A stretch of 33,883 nt of DNA. Origin: Flavobacteriales bacterium (GTDB taxonomy: Bacteria; Bacteroidota; Bacteroidia; Flavobacteriales_D; Crocinitomicaceae). This document shows, piece by piece, positions 2 through 33,883 of this stretch; within the stretch, counting starts at the first letter, position 1; each line of letters begins with the position of its first letter. A program made the position numbers and the translations under genes. Below the pieces are notes generated by a model. It was not told the origin of the DNA, made no database searches, and saw only the letters and a program-made list of their open reading frames with translations. The stretch is from the NCBI GenBank assembly GCA_947453795.1, contig CANGIC010000007.1, positions 1-33,883 on the forward strand, in the 5' to 3' direction.

Positions 2-2581
2 GGTTGGCTAAACCTATGTGGGGCAATGACGGGCGCACAAGGACCTCAAGGAATTCAAGGTCCTATTGGTTTGACAGGTGCTACAGGTCCACAAGGTCCC
101 ACTGGTTTGACAGGTGCTACTGGGGCGCAGGGTCCAACAGGATTGACTGGCGCTACGGGCGCCACTGGCCCGCAAGGTCCTATCGGTTTAACAGGTGCAA
201 CAGGAGCTACGGGTCCACAAGGTCCTATCGGATTGACTGGTGCAACAGGAGCTACGGGTCCACAAGGTCCTGTCGGATTGACAGGTGCAACAGGAGCTAC
301 GGGTCCACAAGGTCCTGTCGGATTGTCAGGAGCAACAGGAGCTACAGGTCCGCAGGGTCCTACTGGTTTGACAGGTGCTACTGGACCACAAGGCCCTACT
401 GGTCCGGCGGGAGCTGACGGTGCTATTGGTCCGCAAGGCCCTATCGGTTTGACGGGTGCAACGGGTGCTACTGGACCACAAGGTCCGATCGGTTTGACAG
501 GGGCTGCTGGGGCAGTCGGTGCTACTGGCGCTACTGGGCCACAGGGTCCTATCGGTTTAACAGGGGCTACTGGAGCTACAGGATCTACAGGTCCGCAAGG
601 TCCTGCGGGTGCTGATGGGGCAGTCGGCGCTACTGGCGCTACTGGGCCACAGGGTCCGGCAGGAGCTACGGGAGCTGCGGGCCCCCAAGGTCCAGCAGGT
701 GCTGCGGGAGCTACAGGTCCGCAAGGTCCGGCGGGAGCGAATGGTCAGGGTGGTGTATCGGTTTCAGGAACAGGCATTACATTGACAGGCACTGGCACGG
801 TTGCAGATCCTTATGTCATCAACGAGAACGACGATGATTGGAAGATTCTTGGAAACGCAGGAACTGTAGCTGGAACAAATTTTATTGGGACAACTGATGC
901 TCAAGCATTTATTACAAAAACTGGAGGTAATGCTGCTGCCAATGAGCGCATGCGTATTTTGGCTACCGGACCGGGAATTTATAATGCCACTACACCTTTT
1001 GCTGGGGATGTATTTTCTGTATATGCCACAGGGGCAACAGGTGCCATAAATCCTTTAGGCACATTCGCCCTTAATGGCTATTCAGCAGGCAATGGGACAG
1101 GTGTTTATGGCGAAACCAATGGTGGAGCTTCTACAAATGGAACAGCAGTTTGGGGAAGTATGTATGGCACTGCAACGCTAGCTTCATCATCGAGCGAAGG
1201 TGTTTGGGGATCGAACTCAACTGCACCTGCAGGAACGGGAGCAACAGCAGCCGTGGCCGTAGGTACACGCGGGGAAGCTACCGGAGCCGCAGGAACGGCG
1301 ATCACTATTGGTGCTTTGGGGATTTCAACGGGAACAACAGGTTCAGCTTACGGAGTCTATGGTCAATCTTCTTCAATAGCTGCCATGGGAGTTTTTGGAA
1401 TCAACCTTGACGTTAGCGCGAATCCAGCACATGGTATTCAAGGACAAACAGGGGCTGTCGGCAGTGCATCAGGAATTCGAGGTTTTAATACCGCAGCAGC
1501 GATTGGTGCTGCTCAAAATGGTTTTGGTGTCCGCGGAAGTGCCAATACGGCGCCTACAGGAACAGGATTCGTTATGGGGGTTCGCGGTGACTGTAGTGGT
1601 GCAACGGGTTCGACCTATGGTGTCTATGGCCAGTCCGCTTCAGCCACAGGATTTGGAGCAGATGGTGTAAATACAAATGCAAGTGGAACAGGATTGTTCG
1701 CTGTCGGAAACAACTCAGCCGGAACCTATCTCACAGGTGGGTCAGGGGCAGCGATTAATGGCGCCGTCATTGGGACCTTTTCGATTGCAAAAACTGTCGC
1801 GAGCGGAAATGGTGTTGTCGGTATTGGAAACAACCTTACAGGTACCATTTTAACTCCTTCCACGGGTAGTGGTGTAACTGGAGTCGGTACTAATTATGGA
1901 ATTGTAGGTTATGCAACAACAACGGTAAATGCAAACCCTTTAAACAACTTGGCGTTGAATGCAGCCACCGCAAGTGCAGGTGGATATTTCGAAGTGCAAG
2001 CAGGAGGCGTTGCTCAGACTTGGGCTTATGTTGGCGTTCGCGACAACACAGGGACCTTACGGAAAATCATCGGTGCGGGTACGGTAAATACAATCGTGAA
2101 AGACCTGAATGAAAAAAATGTGGCACTTTCTTGCCCAGAAGCACCTGAAAACTTGTTCCAAGATTATGGTGTTGGCCAATTGGTAAACGGTAAAGTACAC
2201 ATCACTATCGATCCAATCTTTGCGAAAAATATTGTGGTCAATGAGAAACATCCATTGCGTGTATTTGTGCAATTGGAGGGTGATTGCCAAGGTGTCTATG
2301 TCACCAATAAAACGAAGGATGGATTTGATGTCATCGAGTTGAATGCTGGATCTTCCAATACGGCGTTCTCATGGTCGATTGTTGCAAATCGTGCGGATGA
2401 GGTATTGCCAGATGGCACTATTTCCAAGTATTCTAACGAGCGTTTCGCTCCAGCACCAGGTCCACAAGAAAAGTTAGTGCAAGAAACTAGTGAGGAAAAT
2501 TCGAACGTGCGCAATGTTACCTCGGAGGAACCTGTTTCGCCTACTGGTATTAGTCCGAAGCAAAATCCACGAAAGTTATAG
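2..2581 (+). CDS. Collagen-like repeat surface protein, 5'-partial
   Basis: The frame is open to the left edge, so the true start and any signal peptide probably lie outside the window; the first in-frame ATG is at 26. Counting from that ATG, residues 1 to about 245 are nearly uninterrupted Gly-X-Y triplets rich in GPQGP, GLTGATG and GADGA. These are typical of bacterial collagen-like proteins that form trimeric stalks. A Gly/Ala/Thr-rich region with recurring VYG and GVRG motifs follows (about 250-660) and resembles a repetitive fibre or beta-helix. A C-terminal domain of about 150 residues (from [14 protein letters not shown]) is a conserved-looking ending that I associate with similar Bacteroidota proteins. 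The last 40 residues are polar and rich in Glu, Ser and Pro. No T9SS sorting domain is visible. A cell-surface or tail-fibre-like structural role is inferred. A strong terminator follows. Confidence 0.8.
181..360 (+). repeat. 45-bp tandem repeat in the collagen region
   Basis: Four consecutive 45-bp units begin at 181, 226, 271 and 316. Each encodes five Gly-X-Y triplets (protein unit close to [15 protein letters not shown]). The units differ by only a few bases, mainly ATCGG versus GTCGG at the start, so they look like recent duplications. Looser copies continue to about 740. Confidence 0.8.
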
Positions 2582-28251: not shown

Positions 28252-28776
28252 CTACATGATACTTGGCACATCCGGGTAAGGGATAAAAGACTCCAAGAAT
28301 ACGATGAAAGGTTCCTTCGCGAACATGGCAGTTACTATAGTGAGTGTAACCAACAAGATGGCAACCCCTACATTGTTATCCCTAATTTCCTCGTATTCTT
28401 TGAGTTGAGTCGTCATAATGGCAAATAGCTTGTAGGCAATAAAAATGATGATTCCGCTAAATACATAGCCCAACAACAGGAATAACCCTGTGTATTGCAG
28501 GCAGGATAAAATATAGGAAAATCCTACTTCACCTGAGCTATTCAGCACTTTAAACGTCGCTGTAAGCGGTTGCATGATGCCAAAGGTGATGTAGGCAACG
28601 GAGAAAATTGTTCCACTCAAAAAAATCATGAACGAAAGATTCTTGTACGGATCAACTTCGTTGGTTTTTCTGATGTAAAAGTTCATCATTACCATTTTGG
28701 TAAAATACACCGTCATGATACCGATCATCATTGCGAGCAAAAGCTCAATTCCTGCAGGTCCAAATAAATTCGTCAT
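28252..28776 (-). CDS. DUF350 family membrane protein
   Basis: This 174-residue protein has four helices at about 8-30, 47-69, 87-118 and 134-153. The repeated pattern of a polar residue set before a helix (YKNLSFMIFLSG at 45-56, RDNNVGVAILLVT at 132-144) is the internal duplication typical of DUF350 (YjfL-type) proteins. DUF350 members have no proven activity; I recall them in envelope-stress clusters with PspA-like and polyamine-related genes. This is the last gene of the five-gene operon, 12 bp after the preceding stop. Confidence 0.7.
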   Translation of the reverse strand: MTNLFGPAGIELLLAMMIGIMTVYFTKMVMMNFYIRKTNEVDPYKNLSFMIFLSGTIFSVAYITFGIMQPLTATFKVLNSSGEVGFSYILSCLQYTGLFLLLGYVFSGIIIFIAYKLFAIMTTQLKEYEEIRDNNVGVAILLVTLTIVTAMFAKEPFIVFLESFIPYPDVPSIM

Positions 28777-28788
28777 CTTTTTTACATT

Positions 28789-30516
28789 TTAGTTTTTAGG
28801 TCCAAGTGCTACATACCAGTAGCGCATATTTCCGCATTCATCGGACAGCACCCCGGGTTCATAACCCGGATATGTTGTTTCCCATGCGTAGTAATTCAAT
28901 CCATTGTAGGCAATCGACTTTCCTCTATAATTTCCAGAAATCCCCAAAATGGCATGTCCATATTGATCGGATGCCAACACCACCACATTGTAGCCAAGTC
29001 GGGTCAATACATGATAGAGAAGTACGCTCCGTGTATCACAATCGCCTTTAAAGTTGCCCATAAATTCAGTCGGGGACTGCAAACCGAACTTAATCAATTC
29101 AAGACATGGTCCTCCCGTCTGGTGCCACTCCGTAATAAATCCACCGTAGGTTCGGTCGGCCTCGCTATGTGTCAAATCATGCACTAAGCAATAGGGGATA
29201 TTTTGAATTGAGGTGACAATCATGTCGGCAGCTTTTTGTCTATTCAGCTGTTTCTTTTTGATGATGCGGCTATATTCATCAAGCACCTCATTTAAATATT
29301 CCGCGCGTTCGGATGTCAATCGGCGATAAATTTGACGCCAATAGGCCTGGGATGACTCTGCATCTACTTGGAGTTGATCGCGTTTAATTCTGGAAATATG
29401 ATAGTAGTCATCCCTGACCTTAAAGGTGGCCGCATAGTTCCTGCTTCCATTGTCCTTCCAATTCAACTTGTGGATGCGAAATTTCAATTTTAGCGTATCC
29501 TTTTCTTTTGTAGTGACATGCATAGAGTCCACCTCGGTCTCGATTACGTCGTCATCCTCAGGTTCAACATATTCGCTATCCTCCTTCTTTTGATCCTCCT
29601 TAAGTGCATCACGAACTTGGGAGAAATAGAACAACAACTGAAGGGCAAGAAGAATCCATCCCAGTGATCGAACAAATTTTCCCGTTCGTGCGATCAGGAA
29701 CAGAGAAATACCCAAAAGCAAACCATGTACATTGCTGAAATGAGGTCCGAGTTTGATCATTCCGAACAAATTCCCTAAAATAAGTGCCCATGCAAAAAAA
29801 TTGAGCAATGGACGTTGAATGCCCAAGTGATTTTGTAAGGAAGGGAAATGCTTAAAAAGTCCATGAAGGACGATAGATGCAAAAAATACCGCAGGTAGAA
29901 GATAGGATAAGACGCTGTTTGCGCCTGAGAAATGAAGCAATGAACCTAAAATGAACGTCATTAAAGCAGCGCCTAGCAACAAAGAAATTAATTCTTTCCC
30001 GCGGCTTATGGTTGGTGCATTCGGCAAAACAGGTTGTTGACCTTGCAAAGGAGCAGTCAACAGCGTCATTGACCGACCAAAACAACCTGAGTTCGCTGCT
30101 CCACCAGTGACCGATGTAAGTTTTGACCCCAATAAAGATGTTGATTTTACGGGAGGCGGTGGCGGTAATGGCTTTGTTAACTTGATTAAAATTGTTCCTT
30201 CAAAAGGAATCAACTGCTCATTTTCAAGTGTGACTTTATCCGCAATAATAAGATCTCGAATGACAAAATGCTTCACCCGTTCTGCGATGTATTCGCCCTC
30301 ATTGACAAAAAACCGCAGGGTATGGTGACGGGTTGATCGAAAATACTGACCCACGCAATGTTCTTCCAAATCCACCTCATCGATCGCGATGGCATCATAA
30401 ACATCTCCAACATGAAGAAGGCGTTCCGAAAAAGTATAGGCGCCAGAAGTGTGACTATCTCCCTGACGGAAGAAGCCCTTCACCTTACCTTGCAGATATA
30501 TTACCTTTTCTTTCAC
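28789..30516 (-). CDS. Multi-pass membrane protein with periplasmic transglutaminase-like domain
   Basis: This 575-residue protein has an N-terminal soluble domain (about 1-115) and a Pro-rich linker (PLPPPPP, 117-122). Next comes a Gly/Ser segment with one Cys (GCFG), then about five helices (174-195, 201-219, 237-255, 262-276, 284-298), an acidic linker (305-330) and a large C-terminal domain (335-575). The latter ends in a transglutaminase-like or papain-like fold: Cys493 in GDCDTRS, His521 in GHAILG, and the YAWETT region (543-548) as the place for the third residue. With five helices and a cytoplasmic N-terminus, the catalytic domain would be periplasmic. The function could be peptidase or amidase activity on peptidoglycan or envelope protein. 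The ATG overlaps the upstream stop by 4 bp. Confidence 0.75.
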   Translation of the reverse strand: MKEKVIYLQGKVKGFFRQGDSHTSGAYTFSERLLHVGDVYDAIAIDEVDLEEHCVGQYFRSTRHHTLRFFVNEGEYIAERVKHFVIRDLIIADKVTLENEQLIPFEGTILIKLTKPLPPPPPVKSTSLLGSKLTSVTGGAANSGCFGRSMTLLTAPLQGQQPVLPNAPTISRGKELISLLLGAALMTFILGSLLHFSGANSVLSYLLPAVFFASIVLHGLFKHFPSLQNHLGIQRPLLNFFAWALILGNLFGMIKLGPHFSNVHGLLLGISLFLIARTGKFVRSLGWILLALQLLFYFSQVRDALKEDQKKEDSEYVEPEDDDVIETEVDSMHVTTKEKDTLKLKFRIHKLNWKDNGSRNYAATFKVRDDYYHISRIKRDQLQVDAESSQAYWRQIYRRLTSERAEYLNEVLDEYSRIIKKKQLNRQKAADMIVTSIQNIPYCLVHDLTHSEADRTYGGFITEWHQTGGPCLELIKFGLQSPTEFMGNFKGDCDTRSVLLYHVLTRLGYNVVVLASDQYGHAILGISGNYRGKSIAYNGLNYYAWETTYPGYEPGVLSDECGNMRYWYVALGPKN

Positions 30517-31733
30517 TTCTTGCGTGGCTTAATTTTTCTTCCGTGAATGATTTCAATTTCAACGCGTCGGTTCATGAGCATCCCCTCTTGCGAATCATTC
30601 GATGCGCGTGGTTCTGTTTCTCCTTTTCCAATGGCCTTCAAGCGCACCGGGTCAATTCCTTTTTCAATTAAATAGGCCCGAACACTATTGGCGCGTGCTT
30701 GTGATAAGCGCAAATTGGAGTTGTCATTCCCACGGCTATCGGTATGTCCATAAATATTGGCTTTACACGCTAAGTGCTCCAGCAAATACAAGCTTAAGCG
30801 ATCCAAATCCTTTGCTGAACTTGGAAGAAGGCGGTTGCTGTTGGTATAGAATTGAACGTTCGGTAAAACGAGTGATTCTGTTTCAATGATTTCCACCGTA
30901 TCCCTTGAATGAGTATTCGCATCATCCGTATTGCGCGTATCGTCTGAATCGGTCTTGTCTCTTCTCGCTTCATCGGCATCCGAATTGTCTCTCCGCTTGT
31001 CATTGTCGGTAGAATCTGGTGTAAACCAATCTGAATCATCTCGGTCATTTTGCTCCGTGGAATCACTGGCGTCTCGATCGGTCCTCTTATCGTCACAAGT
31101 GCGCAACAATAATGTCAGCAATCCGAGTAAGAGCAAAACACTGATGAGACCACCACATCCTATTCTACCCAAATTTAAACAGCCACCAGACAGCGGCATA
31201 TTTAGACAGCCCGAACCCATTGTAGAAACATTCGCGCATCCACCTCTTGAAACGCCAGGCAAACAGCCATTGGTAGAACCATCTAGAAATGAATGAGTTC
31301 CGTGAATGGATTTACGTTGTTTTAGTTGGTCGTTGAATACTTGGTCATTTAGTCTTCGCAATTTACACACGACATCTGCTTTCAATACCCCATGTCGAAC
31401 ACCGTCAACCTCGCGGATTTCAGAAATTTCTGGATTTAGGATTGTGACCTCTTCGGCATTGAATTTTCGTGCTATGTCGAGTGGATATTCACCTGAAAGG
31501 GCCGGAAAAACTTCCAAACCCAACAGATAGCGGTCTTCCAAAAATGATCCATTCCATGTGCTCGGCAATTCTCCCGTATGCGGCGCAGCATTTGAGAGCA
31601 CCTTTCGACCAATCGGTTGAATGTGATTTAAGGTGAGCCCCTTACTTTCATCCGTTAAATAAGGTGCCGTCGTAAAACTACATTCCAGTCGACCGTTCAC
31701 CCACATTGGCGCTATTTCCTTTGCTTCGCTCAT
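30513..31733 (-). CDS. Inner-membrane OmpA-domain protein (MotB-like topology)
   Basis: This 406-residue protein has no signal peptide. Residues 1-150 form a soluble domain of unknown type. Residues 155-195 are a Gly-Cys-rich stretch with Cys at 157, 166, 176, 185 and 193. One helix (about 195-210) follows, then a highly charged Asp/Arg/Ser/Thr linker (214-280), then an OmpA C-terminal domain (about 290-397) that binds peptidoglycan. In that domain YGHTDSRG gives Asp332 and SQARANS gives Arg347, spaced like the diaminopimelate-binding Asp/Arg pair of OmpA; NRRVEIEI (388-395) is also typical. The layout places the N-terminus in the cytoplasm and ties the inner membrane to the cell wall. It overlaps both neighbouring genes by 4 bp. 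Confidence 0.85.
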   Translation of the reverse strand: MSEAKEIAPMWVNGRLECSFTTAPYLTDESKGLTLNHIQPIGRKVLSNAAPHTGELPSTWNGSFLEDRYLLGLEVFPALSGEYPLDIARKFNAEEVTILNPEISEIREVDGVRHGVLKADVVCKLRRLNDQVFNDQLKQRKSIHGTHSFLDGSTNGCLPGVSRGGCANVSTMGSGCLNMPLSGGCLNLGRIGCGGLISVLLLLGLLTLLLRTCDDKRTDRDASDSTEQNDRDDSDWFTPDSTDNDKRRDNSDADEARRDKTDSDDTRNTDDANTHSRDTVEIIETESLVLPNVQFYTNSNRLLPSSAKDLDRLSLYLLEHLACKANIYGHTDSRGNDNSNLRLSQARANSVRAYLIEKGIDPVRLKAIGKGETEPRASNDSQEGMLMNRRVEIEIIHGRKIKPRKK

Positions 31734-32752
31734 TGTAGCTGTTCGAAGTGATCGAAAAGTTTGATTGTTGTGCGCTTTGTTGGCGTTTTAAAAATGCGTG
31801 TCCGATTAAATGGAGGATCTTCGTACAAGGATTCGTGCGAAAGCGAATAGTTGTAATTCTGTAAGAGATACTCCGCGCAGTCCTTCTTCATTTTTGAATA
31901 TTCTGCTGCAATCACCAGCACCATTTCATCTCCAAAGTACTTTCCATACAGATAGGATGTGGCATAGCGAACATACATGTAGGCCGGTAGCAGCGAGAAG
32001 AAAAGTGCGAAGAGAAGAAACAATACCAAACCTGAATTTGGCTGATGAAAGAGTAACTCAAAACGCTTGAAGGGCATTCCCGCGTGCTTCAGTTCTTTTC
32101 TAAAATGGGCCAATAAGTGTCGGTTGTTTTTTACTAAAAGTGCCTTCTTTACACTCAATTTCTTTTCCAATACATCAATTTGTTTATGAATGTGTCGGAT
32201 TTTGAATTGCTGAATGCGCACATTCTTTTCAGTGTTAAAGATGATTTTTTGTTCACTTTCCTTTTTTTCAATGAGCATGGAAATAGAGCCCAGCTGTTGG
32301 TCAGTCATGCGCTGCTTCGATTGGGCAAAATTAACATACACTTGATTTTTATAGCCCTGTAAATCCTGGGAGATGGATTGGCGAAACACAAAAGCACTGA
32401 TCGGAACAATCAAAGTAAAAACCAGCAACATGAAGAGTACAATCCGAAAGATATTCGCGCCATTCACAATCAATTTTTTCATAGTGACCACCTCACCTAT
32501 TGGCAATTGAATAGTCAACAGCGTAAAACGTATGATGGAGAAAAACACAAAAGTGAGCACCCCAGCCAGTGGCAAGGACAAGGCATAGTCTAAGGACAAC
32601 AAATAAAAGAAGTAATACAGTGAAAGAAAGGACGCAGAGATGACCAAGATGAAATAAAATGTTGCTTTCGCATAGGCAGACCTCTCCCCCGACGAGCACC
32701 GAAGCAAGTGTTTGGTATCCAATCCAAAAAGCAAGGTCGCTAGGCGCTCCAT
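31730..32752 (-). CDS. DUF4407-like membrane protein, divergent paralogue
   Basis: This 340-residue protein has three N-terminal helices (about 31-53, 58-80 and 102-122), a charged helical or coiled-coil segment (about 125-222), a fourth helix (241-260) and a cytoplasmic-looking tail. This is the architecture of the DUF4407 protein encoded directly upstream, only with a shorter coil. The N-terminus (LDTKHLLRCSSGERSAYAK) resembles the DUF4407 entry region, and FTLLTI stands in place of DRFIVSS. I therefore read it as a divergent DUF4407 paralogue. Its ATG follows the upstream TAA with no gap, and its end overlaps the OmpA-domain gene in ATGA. Confidence 0.7.
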   Translation of the reverse strand: MERLATLLFGLDTKHLLRCSSGERSAYAKATFYFILVISASFLSLYYFFYLLSLDYALSLPLAGVLTFVFFSIIRFTLLTIQLPIGEVVTMKKLIVNGANIFRIVLFMLLVFTLIVPISAFVFRQSISQDLQGYKNQVYVNFAQSKQRMTDQQLGSISMLIEKKESEQKIIFNTEKNVRIQQFKIRHIHKQIDVLEKKLSVKKALLVKNNRHLLAHFRKELKHAGMPFKRFELLFHQPNSGLVLFLLFALFFSLLPAYMYVRYATSYLYGKYFGDEMVLVIAAEYSKMKKDCAEYLLQNYNYSLSHESLYEDPPFNRTRIFKTPTKRTTIKLFDHFEQLQ

Positions 32753-33883
32753 TTACGATTCTTTGTAGAAGTCTTCTGGGTTATCATTGATCTTTTTTCC
32801 CGTCGATTCGCTCCACTTATTGACCACTTGAGAAGCAAGTTTATCTTGCTCGGCCAACTGCATTTTCTTGACATTCAGTTCATGGTCAATTTCGAGGAAA
32901 CTTACTTTTTCAGCATCTTTTGACCCGTTTTGTGTATCTACAACAGACTCAGAAAACACAATGCCATGTTGCGCTTCAATGCGTTTTTTATTGTTCTCCA
33001 CCAGGTATTCATACGCCCCTTTGTTCATCATCATTTTAAAGAAGATCGGCCCCGCTTCTATAGAGAAAAGCACCAAGAAGATAATGATTGGAATCCAAAA
33101 ACTCAATTCGTGTGAGATATGGATCCGCTCCAACAAACCATCCAGTTGATAGGCCATTTGCTGATTTTTCTTGTACTCACTATCACGACTTTTATCAATG
33201 ACATCAATTTCTTTCATCAAGCGTTTCTGACGATCTTTTAACCCTTGAATTTCAGGTGCTTTTGATGCAATTTTCGCTTCTAGTTCTGCCTCTTGCTTGT
33301 TCAAGTTTTCACGTTGCGTTTTTGCTGCCGGACCTTCACCGGCCTTCCCTGATCCTATACGACCAGCAATTTCATCTTCCAGACGTTTGCGCGCATCTTG
33401 AATTTCCATTCGCCGTTTTTCAAATGTTGATTCAATGTCCATTTGCTCCTTCTCCACTTTGGCGAGATCGTCTTTCTTCGCCTTCATTTCCATTTCCTTT
33501 TGGGCATCTGTATTTTGATTCAGCTCAATTAAATACTTGTCCTGTTTTTTCTGTAATTCAGCATCAATTTCCGTTTTCAAAATGCGCACCTCCAATGGAG
33601 TTGAAATCGCAATTCCAAGAATGAAGGCAATGATAATCCGCGGCAATGCCTGCAAGAGTTCTTTACCTGAAATCGAATCTTTGCCATCACCCTTTCCTGT
33701 GCTGGACACAATGAAGCGGTCCATGTTTAAAATAATAGATCCCCAAACTACGGCAAAAAACAGGGCCAAAAGCACCCATCCCCATGCCAATGGATTGTCA
33801 CTTACCGCATCCCCTTTGGGTGCAAAAATGGTGTAAAATGCATAGCCACCGGAAACAGCAGCAAGCAATCCCGTGCAGAAAAC
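32753..33883 (-). CDS. DUF4407 domain protein, 5'-partial
   Basis: At least 371 residues are visible. The frame is open to the right edge (VFCTG precedes residue 1 of the visible ORF), so the first helix and start lie outside. Visible parts are the end of helix 1 (LLAAVSGGYAFYTIF), helix 2 (30-47), the family hallmark NMDRFIVSS (48-56), helix 3 (74-90) with STPLEVRIL (89-97), a long coiled coil (about 98-245, rich in Lys, Glu and Gln), helix 4 (257-276) and a helical tail. DUF4407 proteins are widespread in Bacteroidota and uncharacterised. It is the first visible gene of the operon; the promoter is outside the window. Confidence 0.88.
   Translation of the reverse strand, partial: VFCTGLLAAVSGGYAFYTIFAPKGDAVSDNPLAWGWVLLALFFAVVWGSIILNMDRFIVSSTGKGDGKDSISGKELLQALPRIIIAFILGIAISTPLEVRILKTEIDAELQKKQDKYLIELNQNTDAQKEMEMKAKKDDLAKVEKEQMDIESTFEKRRMEIQDARKRLEDEIAGRIGSGKAGEGPAAKTQRENLNKQEAELEAKIASKAPEIQGLKDRQKRLMKEIDVIDKSRDSEYKKNQQMAYQLDGLLERIHISHELSFWIPIIIFLVLFSIEAGPIFFKMMMNKGAYEYLVENNKKRIEAQHGIVFSESVVDTQNGSKDAEKVSFLEIDHELNVKKMQLAEQDKLASQVVNKWSESTGKKINDNPEDFYKES

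Follow-up and report, generated by a model that had tools for sequence, protein, structure and literature searches.

We found that the five minus-strand genes at the right end of this contig form a real, conserved and transferred gene system. The window, by which we mean the whole stretch of 33,883 nucleotides analysed here, corresponds to contig 7, in full, of a draft assembly of 2.59 Mb. In transcription order the genes encode DUF4407a (32753..33883; 376 aa, truncated at the 5' side by the edge of the contig), DUF4407b (31730..32752; 340 aa), an OmpA protein (30513..31733; 406 aa), a transglutaminase-like protein denoted TGL (28789..30516; 575 aa, GTG start), and a DUF350 protein (28252..28776; 174 aa). 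The original prediction, made from the sequence alone, had described five tightly joined reading frames that all encode membrane proteins. All five reading frames and exactly the same gaps were recovered (junctions of 12, -4, -4 and 0 bp, from the DUF350 end towards DUF4407a), and transmembrane (TM) segments were predicted in all five products (4, 4, 1, about 5, and 4). The first ~50 residues of DUF4407a were absent from the rest of the window's own assembly. NCBIfam gave matches to the OmpA domain alone, all below cut-off. The left end of the window (2-2581, plus strand) holds a collagen-like G-x-y repeat protein of about 859 aa that is open at that end.

The original prediction had read the genes as a single system, to be abandoned if they were rarely neighbours elsewhere; many other genomes proved to have the same neighbours, arranged in the same order. 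TGL served as the probe for this survey. Within the family, a single query sequence detected it in 11 of 100 genomes and a profile in 40 of 240 (17%); a phylum-wide sample, in which three candidates were scored per genome for many genomes, gave TGL in at least 8 of 395. We then defined architectures by reading about 50 loci with grown profiles. About 18 loci, the window and about 17 others, had the order DUF4407a-DUF4407b-OmpA-TGL-DUF350 (type I), the genes lying about -30 to +20 bp apart in almost every locus; where members are missing from type I loci, this coincides with contig ends or, in L016, with the picking of reading frames (DUF350 was seen separately there). Type I usually starts with a sixth, soluble gene (about 150-180 aa) upstream of DUF4407a, a position that in the window lies beyond the contig end. 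Type II, with 12 complete loci, comprises eight genes in the order TGL'-c4 (a TM protein)-DUF4407a-OmpA1-OmpA2-DUF4407b-TGL-DUF350, and thus contains two TGLs and two proteins that join a cytosolic beta domain (betaN) to a TM segment. When c4 was considered as a homologue of the sixth type I gene, the comparison was not significant. A form without OmpA (DUF4407a-DUF4407b-TGL-DUF350) was seen in L019, L022, L063 and L077, and in L064 and L095 with no visible DUF350. Finally, a minimal TGL-DUF350 form was found at ten loci, with the gene order reversed (DUF350 first) in L065 and L066.

Co-occurrence pointed in the same direction. Among the 240 genomes, 40 had TGL, 53 had DUF4407 and 31 had both (odds ratio 28, Fisher p about 5e-17, a descriptive value because the genomes are related), far above chance expectation. 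Seven of the nine TGL genomes lacking DUF4407 carried the minimal form, and the other two had TGL on short contigs; the 22 DUF4407 genomes without TGL indicate that DUF4407 has other contexts too. Since the gene order is conserved in other genomes, chance is excluded.

The operon also moves between lineages. A maximum-likelihood tree built from 32 DUF4407a proteins separated type I, type II and the OmpA-less form into supported groups, and architecture therefore follows descent. The same tree crosses taxonomic boundaries: a sequence of genus g16 was nested among those of genus g22 (98/100), and one from family f6 paired with a g2 sequence of family f1 (100/99), with a long branch in the pair. 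In addition, two genomes (G615 and G630) each carried both type I and type II. Patchy presence, the tree and these double occurrences together argue for horizontal spread, and since the operon is patchy and transferred between lineages, we regard it as accessory rather than housekeeping. A search of viral contigs, phages and plasmids yielded no TGL relatives except for a 27% match on a Halorubrum plasmid, and the plasmid search yielded no DUF4407a. On that plasmid (p117; L026, 5977-6738) the distant archaeal TGL relative stands beside genes annotated as GrpE and tubulin-like. The GrpE neighbour is the second chaperone-cofactor link of TGL after DnaJ, which was seen as an N-terminal domain (6.8e-23) of the TGL protein of L064 (8323-10236, minus strand); in L023 (3177-7310) the region upstream of a minimal TGL-DUF350 pair encodes a PIN-TPR-GreABC protein (9e-10) and contains a DnaJ-like reading frame.

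The two DUF4407 proteins, which had been expected to share a four-helix, coiled-coil plan, indeed have four predicted TM segments each. DUF4407a matched Pfam PF14362 at 183 bits (cut-off 31.3; E 9.7e-54), whereas the divergent paralogue DUF4407b, with a shorter coiled coil, remained under that cut-off (23.7 bits, 3.4e-05) and was recovered as a DUF4407 relative by alignment and by a profile grown from relatives. Alignment and hydropathy place a coiled-coil hairpin, with GxGP at its apex, between TM3 and TM4 of DUF4407a, and an invariant N-x-D-R-F-I at the end of TM2. Because of the charge bias (positive-inside), the hairpin is predicted to be periplasmic. An AF2 model of the DUF4407a homologue from L015 (a Chitinophaga by the depositor's label), built on a two-sequence alignment, was confident in the hairpin only. 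The assignment of the last gene to DUF350 was borne out at 32 bits against a Pfam cut-off of 26 (PF03994, 1.4e-07; four predicted TM). We counted 41 DUF350 members in TGL loci, nearly all adjoining TGL. A survey of domain correlations reportedly includes DUF350 together with transglutaminase. Tandem DUF350 pairs close the type II operons of L087 (13463-14407) and L099 (11367-12299). Profile searches against the PDB gave no meaningful match for DUF4407a or DUF350.

The OmpA protein combines a cytosolic betaN, one TM segment by hydropathy, an acidic linker and a C-terminal OmpA domain (PF00691, 5.6e-19) in which a motif check found GHTD...RA. The HTD...R motif, whose Asp and Arg we take from the OmpA literature to be wall-binding positions, is kept in the window and in most type I members and is degenerate in type II. 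The predicted link from the inner membrane to peptidoglycan is thus supported for type I by the single TM segment and the conserved motif. Wall anchoring is not universal, since the wall-binding Asp is gone from the OmpA-like domains of type II and OmpA is missing altogether from other forms. The betaN domains of OmpA and TGL were related by hhalign via a type II bridge (94% and 80%); a direct comparison of the two N-terminal domains was not significant. Type II encodes the beta-domain/TM protein and TGL in two genes and type I has them fused, which argues for their working together.

TGL starts with its own betaN and continues through about five predicted TM segments to a domain resembling transglutaminases and cysteine peptidases. 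In an alignment of 27 diverse members, Asp-Cys, His, Glu and Thr were all invariant, with C493, H521 and E546 as the predicted triad of the window protein. A pattern check found C, H and E in 57 of 62 sequences, and three of the five exceptions are cut by contig ends. The window protein had no Pfam match of its own; Transglut_core matched 9 of the 27 relatives weakly (E up to 0.1, best 3e-4). Among PDB profiles, 4fgo matched best (E 0.017 only); we take it to be Legionella LapG, a periplasmic protein. On the basis of these weak profile hits and the invariant triad, TGL probably belongs to the transglutaminase-like superfamily. Simple hydropathy gave about five TM segments in the window and a single N-terminal one in short forms; in L020 and L074 it gave two, an even number, and a third had to be assumed. 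The odd number, or the single N-terminal segment, would place the enzyme domain outside the inner membrane. Of the periplasmic cysteine-protease-fold enzyme in the original prediction, the periplasmic cysteine-protease-like domain is backed by the sequence; the papain/transglutaminase fold itself is unconfirmed, since the AF2 models were poor (mean pLDDT 42 for TGL, also from a two-sequence alignment, and 52 for DUF4407a).

Taken together, we tentatively favour, at somewhat less than even confidence, a wall-anchored inner-membrane complex that would control a periplasmic cysteine peptidase or transamidase. The two DUF4407 proteins would form the membrane scaffold and, judging from hydropathy and charge, extend their coiled-coil hairpins into the periplasm. 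OmpA would span the membrane once and, given its conserved motif, bind peptidoglycan, while TGL would hold the periplasmic cysteine-peptidase/transamidase domain suggested by its triad. As the constant companion of TGL, DUF350 would most likely serve to position or gate it. Since a cytosolic beta domain is common to OmpA and TGL, a cytosolic signal could pass outwards, as from LapD to the LapG protease. Upon such a trigger TGL would act on an envelope protein, by cleavage or by cross-linking, and the operon may perhaps act as a conflict or defence module.

The last point leads to an alternative that we consider possible, if somewhat unlikely: an anti-phage or conflict system in which infection is sensed by STAND/TPR proteins or by the cytosolic beta domains, whereupon the membrane complex, through its periplasmic enzyme, would damage or seal the infected cell's envelope. 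The accessory, patchy and transferred nature of the operon is consistent with this, and so are its neighbours. Of the roughly 10 type I loci in which sufficient downstream DNA is visible, 9 have within about 7 kb a member of c7, a family of large TPR/STAND-like proteins, or a 5' remnant of one. L015 has a full-length NACHT version; NACHT/STAND-TPR proteins follow the operon in L015, L016 and L072, and in L016, L072 and L076 other STAND-TPR proteins occupy the c7 position. In the family, c7 was found in 12 of 40 genomes with TGL versus 8 of 200 without (p 5e-06), and 15 of its 37 places (a hand count) are within 10 kb of a TGL operon. RhuM-Fic, a HEC-04 ATPase, HsdR and a PIN-TPR-GreABC protein were present in some flanks, and TM-OmpA parts like those of the operon are described in iSTAND systems. 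The iSTAND and vWA-MoxR conflict systems are accessory too, with occasional transglutaminase-like peptidases (PMC7159879); the operon differs in lacking the vWA-MoxR core and in having STAND genes beside some loci only.

However, c7 is absent from the window's own genome, and c7 arrays are also found where the operon is absent, with neighbours that recur from array to array, so that a shared insertion site (a common hotspot) explains the linkage as well as joint function does. For the same reason, and because the stand-alone arrays share cassette neighbours, c7 is unproven as an obligatory component. The enrichment in defence islands that the original prediction had suggested as a check was not seen either: comparing 118 flank with 118 control proteins from the same genomes (controls partly from the same contigs, and counting families rather than proteins), PADLOC matched 69 families in flanks and 200 in controls. 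Since the c7 linkage has this second explanation and the PADLOC comparison was negative, the defence role is at present conjectural. As to c7 itself, its tandem arrays (L069 12953-20000, L020 12620-18007, L074 3431-7892, also L122 and L125) have a nearly constant start of ~160 aa and are divergent behind it, and remnants of about 30 codons of its 5' end (e.g. L016 4633-4713, L072 12895-12981) precede unrelated STAND genes. Judged from sequence, it looks as if cassettes were swapped behind a common 5' end.

Rather unlikely as well is a system for envelope stress or surface remodelling, comparable to Psp/Yjf or Lap in role and not in descent, whose complex senses strain on the membrane or wall and whose TGL trims an adhesin or other envelope protein. 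Psp-linked Yjf operons contain DUF350 (YjfL) and predicted intracellular beta-rich proteins (PMC11237479), features that the operon shares, and the predicted wall anchor of OmpA and the LapG-like triad enzyme fit the same scheme. A further hint, at lipid metabolism, comes from genus g22, in which a hotdog-type thioesterase (c6) follows DUF350 on the same strand, with gaps mostly of -1 to +55 bp (L020, L069, L070, L071, L072, L074, L076 and L087). We considered c6 as a fixed insertion anchor and rejected this: G000 and G037 carry close homologues at other sites, and in several g22 genomes lacking the operon all homologues are distant, so c6 may instead be an accessory gene. Unlike Psp/Yjf, the operon has no PspA, CesT/Tir, DUF4178 or polyamine gene, and its DUF350 is a four-TM form paired with TGL. 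The link to PspA and polyamine clusters raised in the original prediction was not seen: no PspA-like protein was found among the operon genes across loci or in the part of the flank proteins scanned, and the flanks examined contained no recognisable gene for PspA, DUF4178, spermidine synthase or a c-di-GMP receptor. Lap (LapD-LapG, peptidase C93/BTLCP) resembles the operon in coupling a periplasmic cysteine enzyme of the transglutaminase-like type to a signalling partner in the membrane. TGL differs from LapG in that it is itself anchored in the membrane and carries a fused cytosolic beta domain, with a C-H-E triad and with DUF4407, OmpA and DUF350 as partners; no LapD, c-di-GMP domain or adhesin was recognised in the general scan of the flanks. 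Moreover, a general stress system would be expected to be less patchy than a presence in 17% of the family.

We consider improbable an ion-driven or gated wall-anchored channel of the Zorya/MotAB kind, with the DUF4407 pair as a stator-like pore and OmpA as plug and anchor. Zorya has a comparable one-TM wall-binding OmpA protein beside a multi-TM protein and a comparable accessory distribution, and the invariant motif at the end of TM2 of DUF4407a could suit such a role. PADLOC (2023) matched the operon genes to ZorB via the OmpA domain and to LmuB via the coiled coil only, which we regard as generic similarity; the ZorB3 match of the OmpA protein (3.5e-09) was likewise confined to its OmpA domain. 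Against a channel, neither DUF4407 protein matched MotA_ExbB or ZorA in Pfam or PADLOC, and the operon, unlike Zorya, has an enzyme and DUF350. No adjacent ZorC, ZorD or ZorE was recognised in the flanks scanned (the window's upstream side being cut by the contig end), and some forms lack OmpA. That the genes are packed together without a common function is very improbable: the proposed complex is a deduction, but the order has been retained across genera and families through deep divergence, together with linked variants.

We return to the reading that we favour, the wall-anchored complex around TGL. The gene set appears to be undescribed, as no known kind (Zorya, Psp/Yjf or Lap) fits it and no publication was found in the open-access literature searched; judged by title and abstract, none of the three papers there that mention DUF4407 describes such a system. 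In its broadest form, which we regard as distinctly doubtful, the operon may represent a new class of transferred, wall-anchored inner-membrane machines of Bacteroidota. In these, a signal from the cytosol, which might come from STAND/TPR neighbours that look cassette-swapped, would switch on a periplasmic cysteine protease or cross-linker and so protect or kill the cell via its envelope. Should the favoured complex operate as envisaged, families of unknown function (DUF4407 and one branch of DUF350) would make up a new kind of accessory envelope machine, and both would gain testable partners together with an enzyme whose catalytic residues can be named. It would also mean a new inside-out route by which periplasmic proteolysis is controlled in Bacteroidota.
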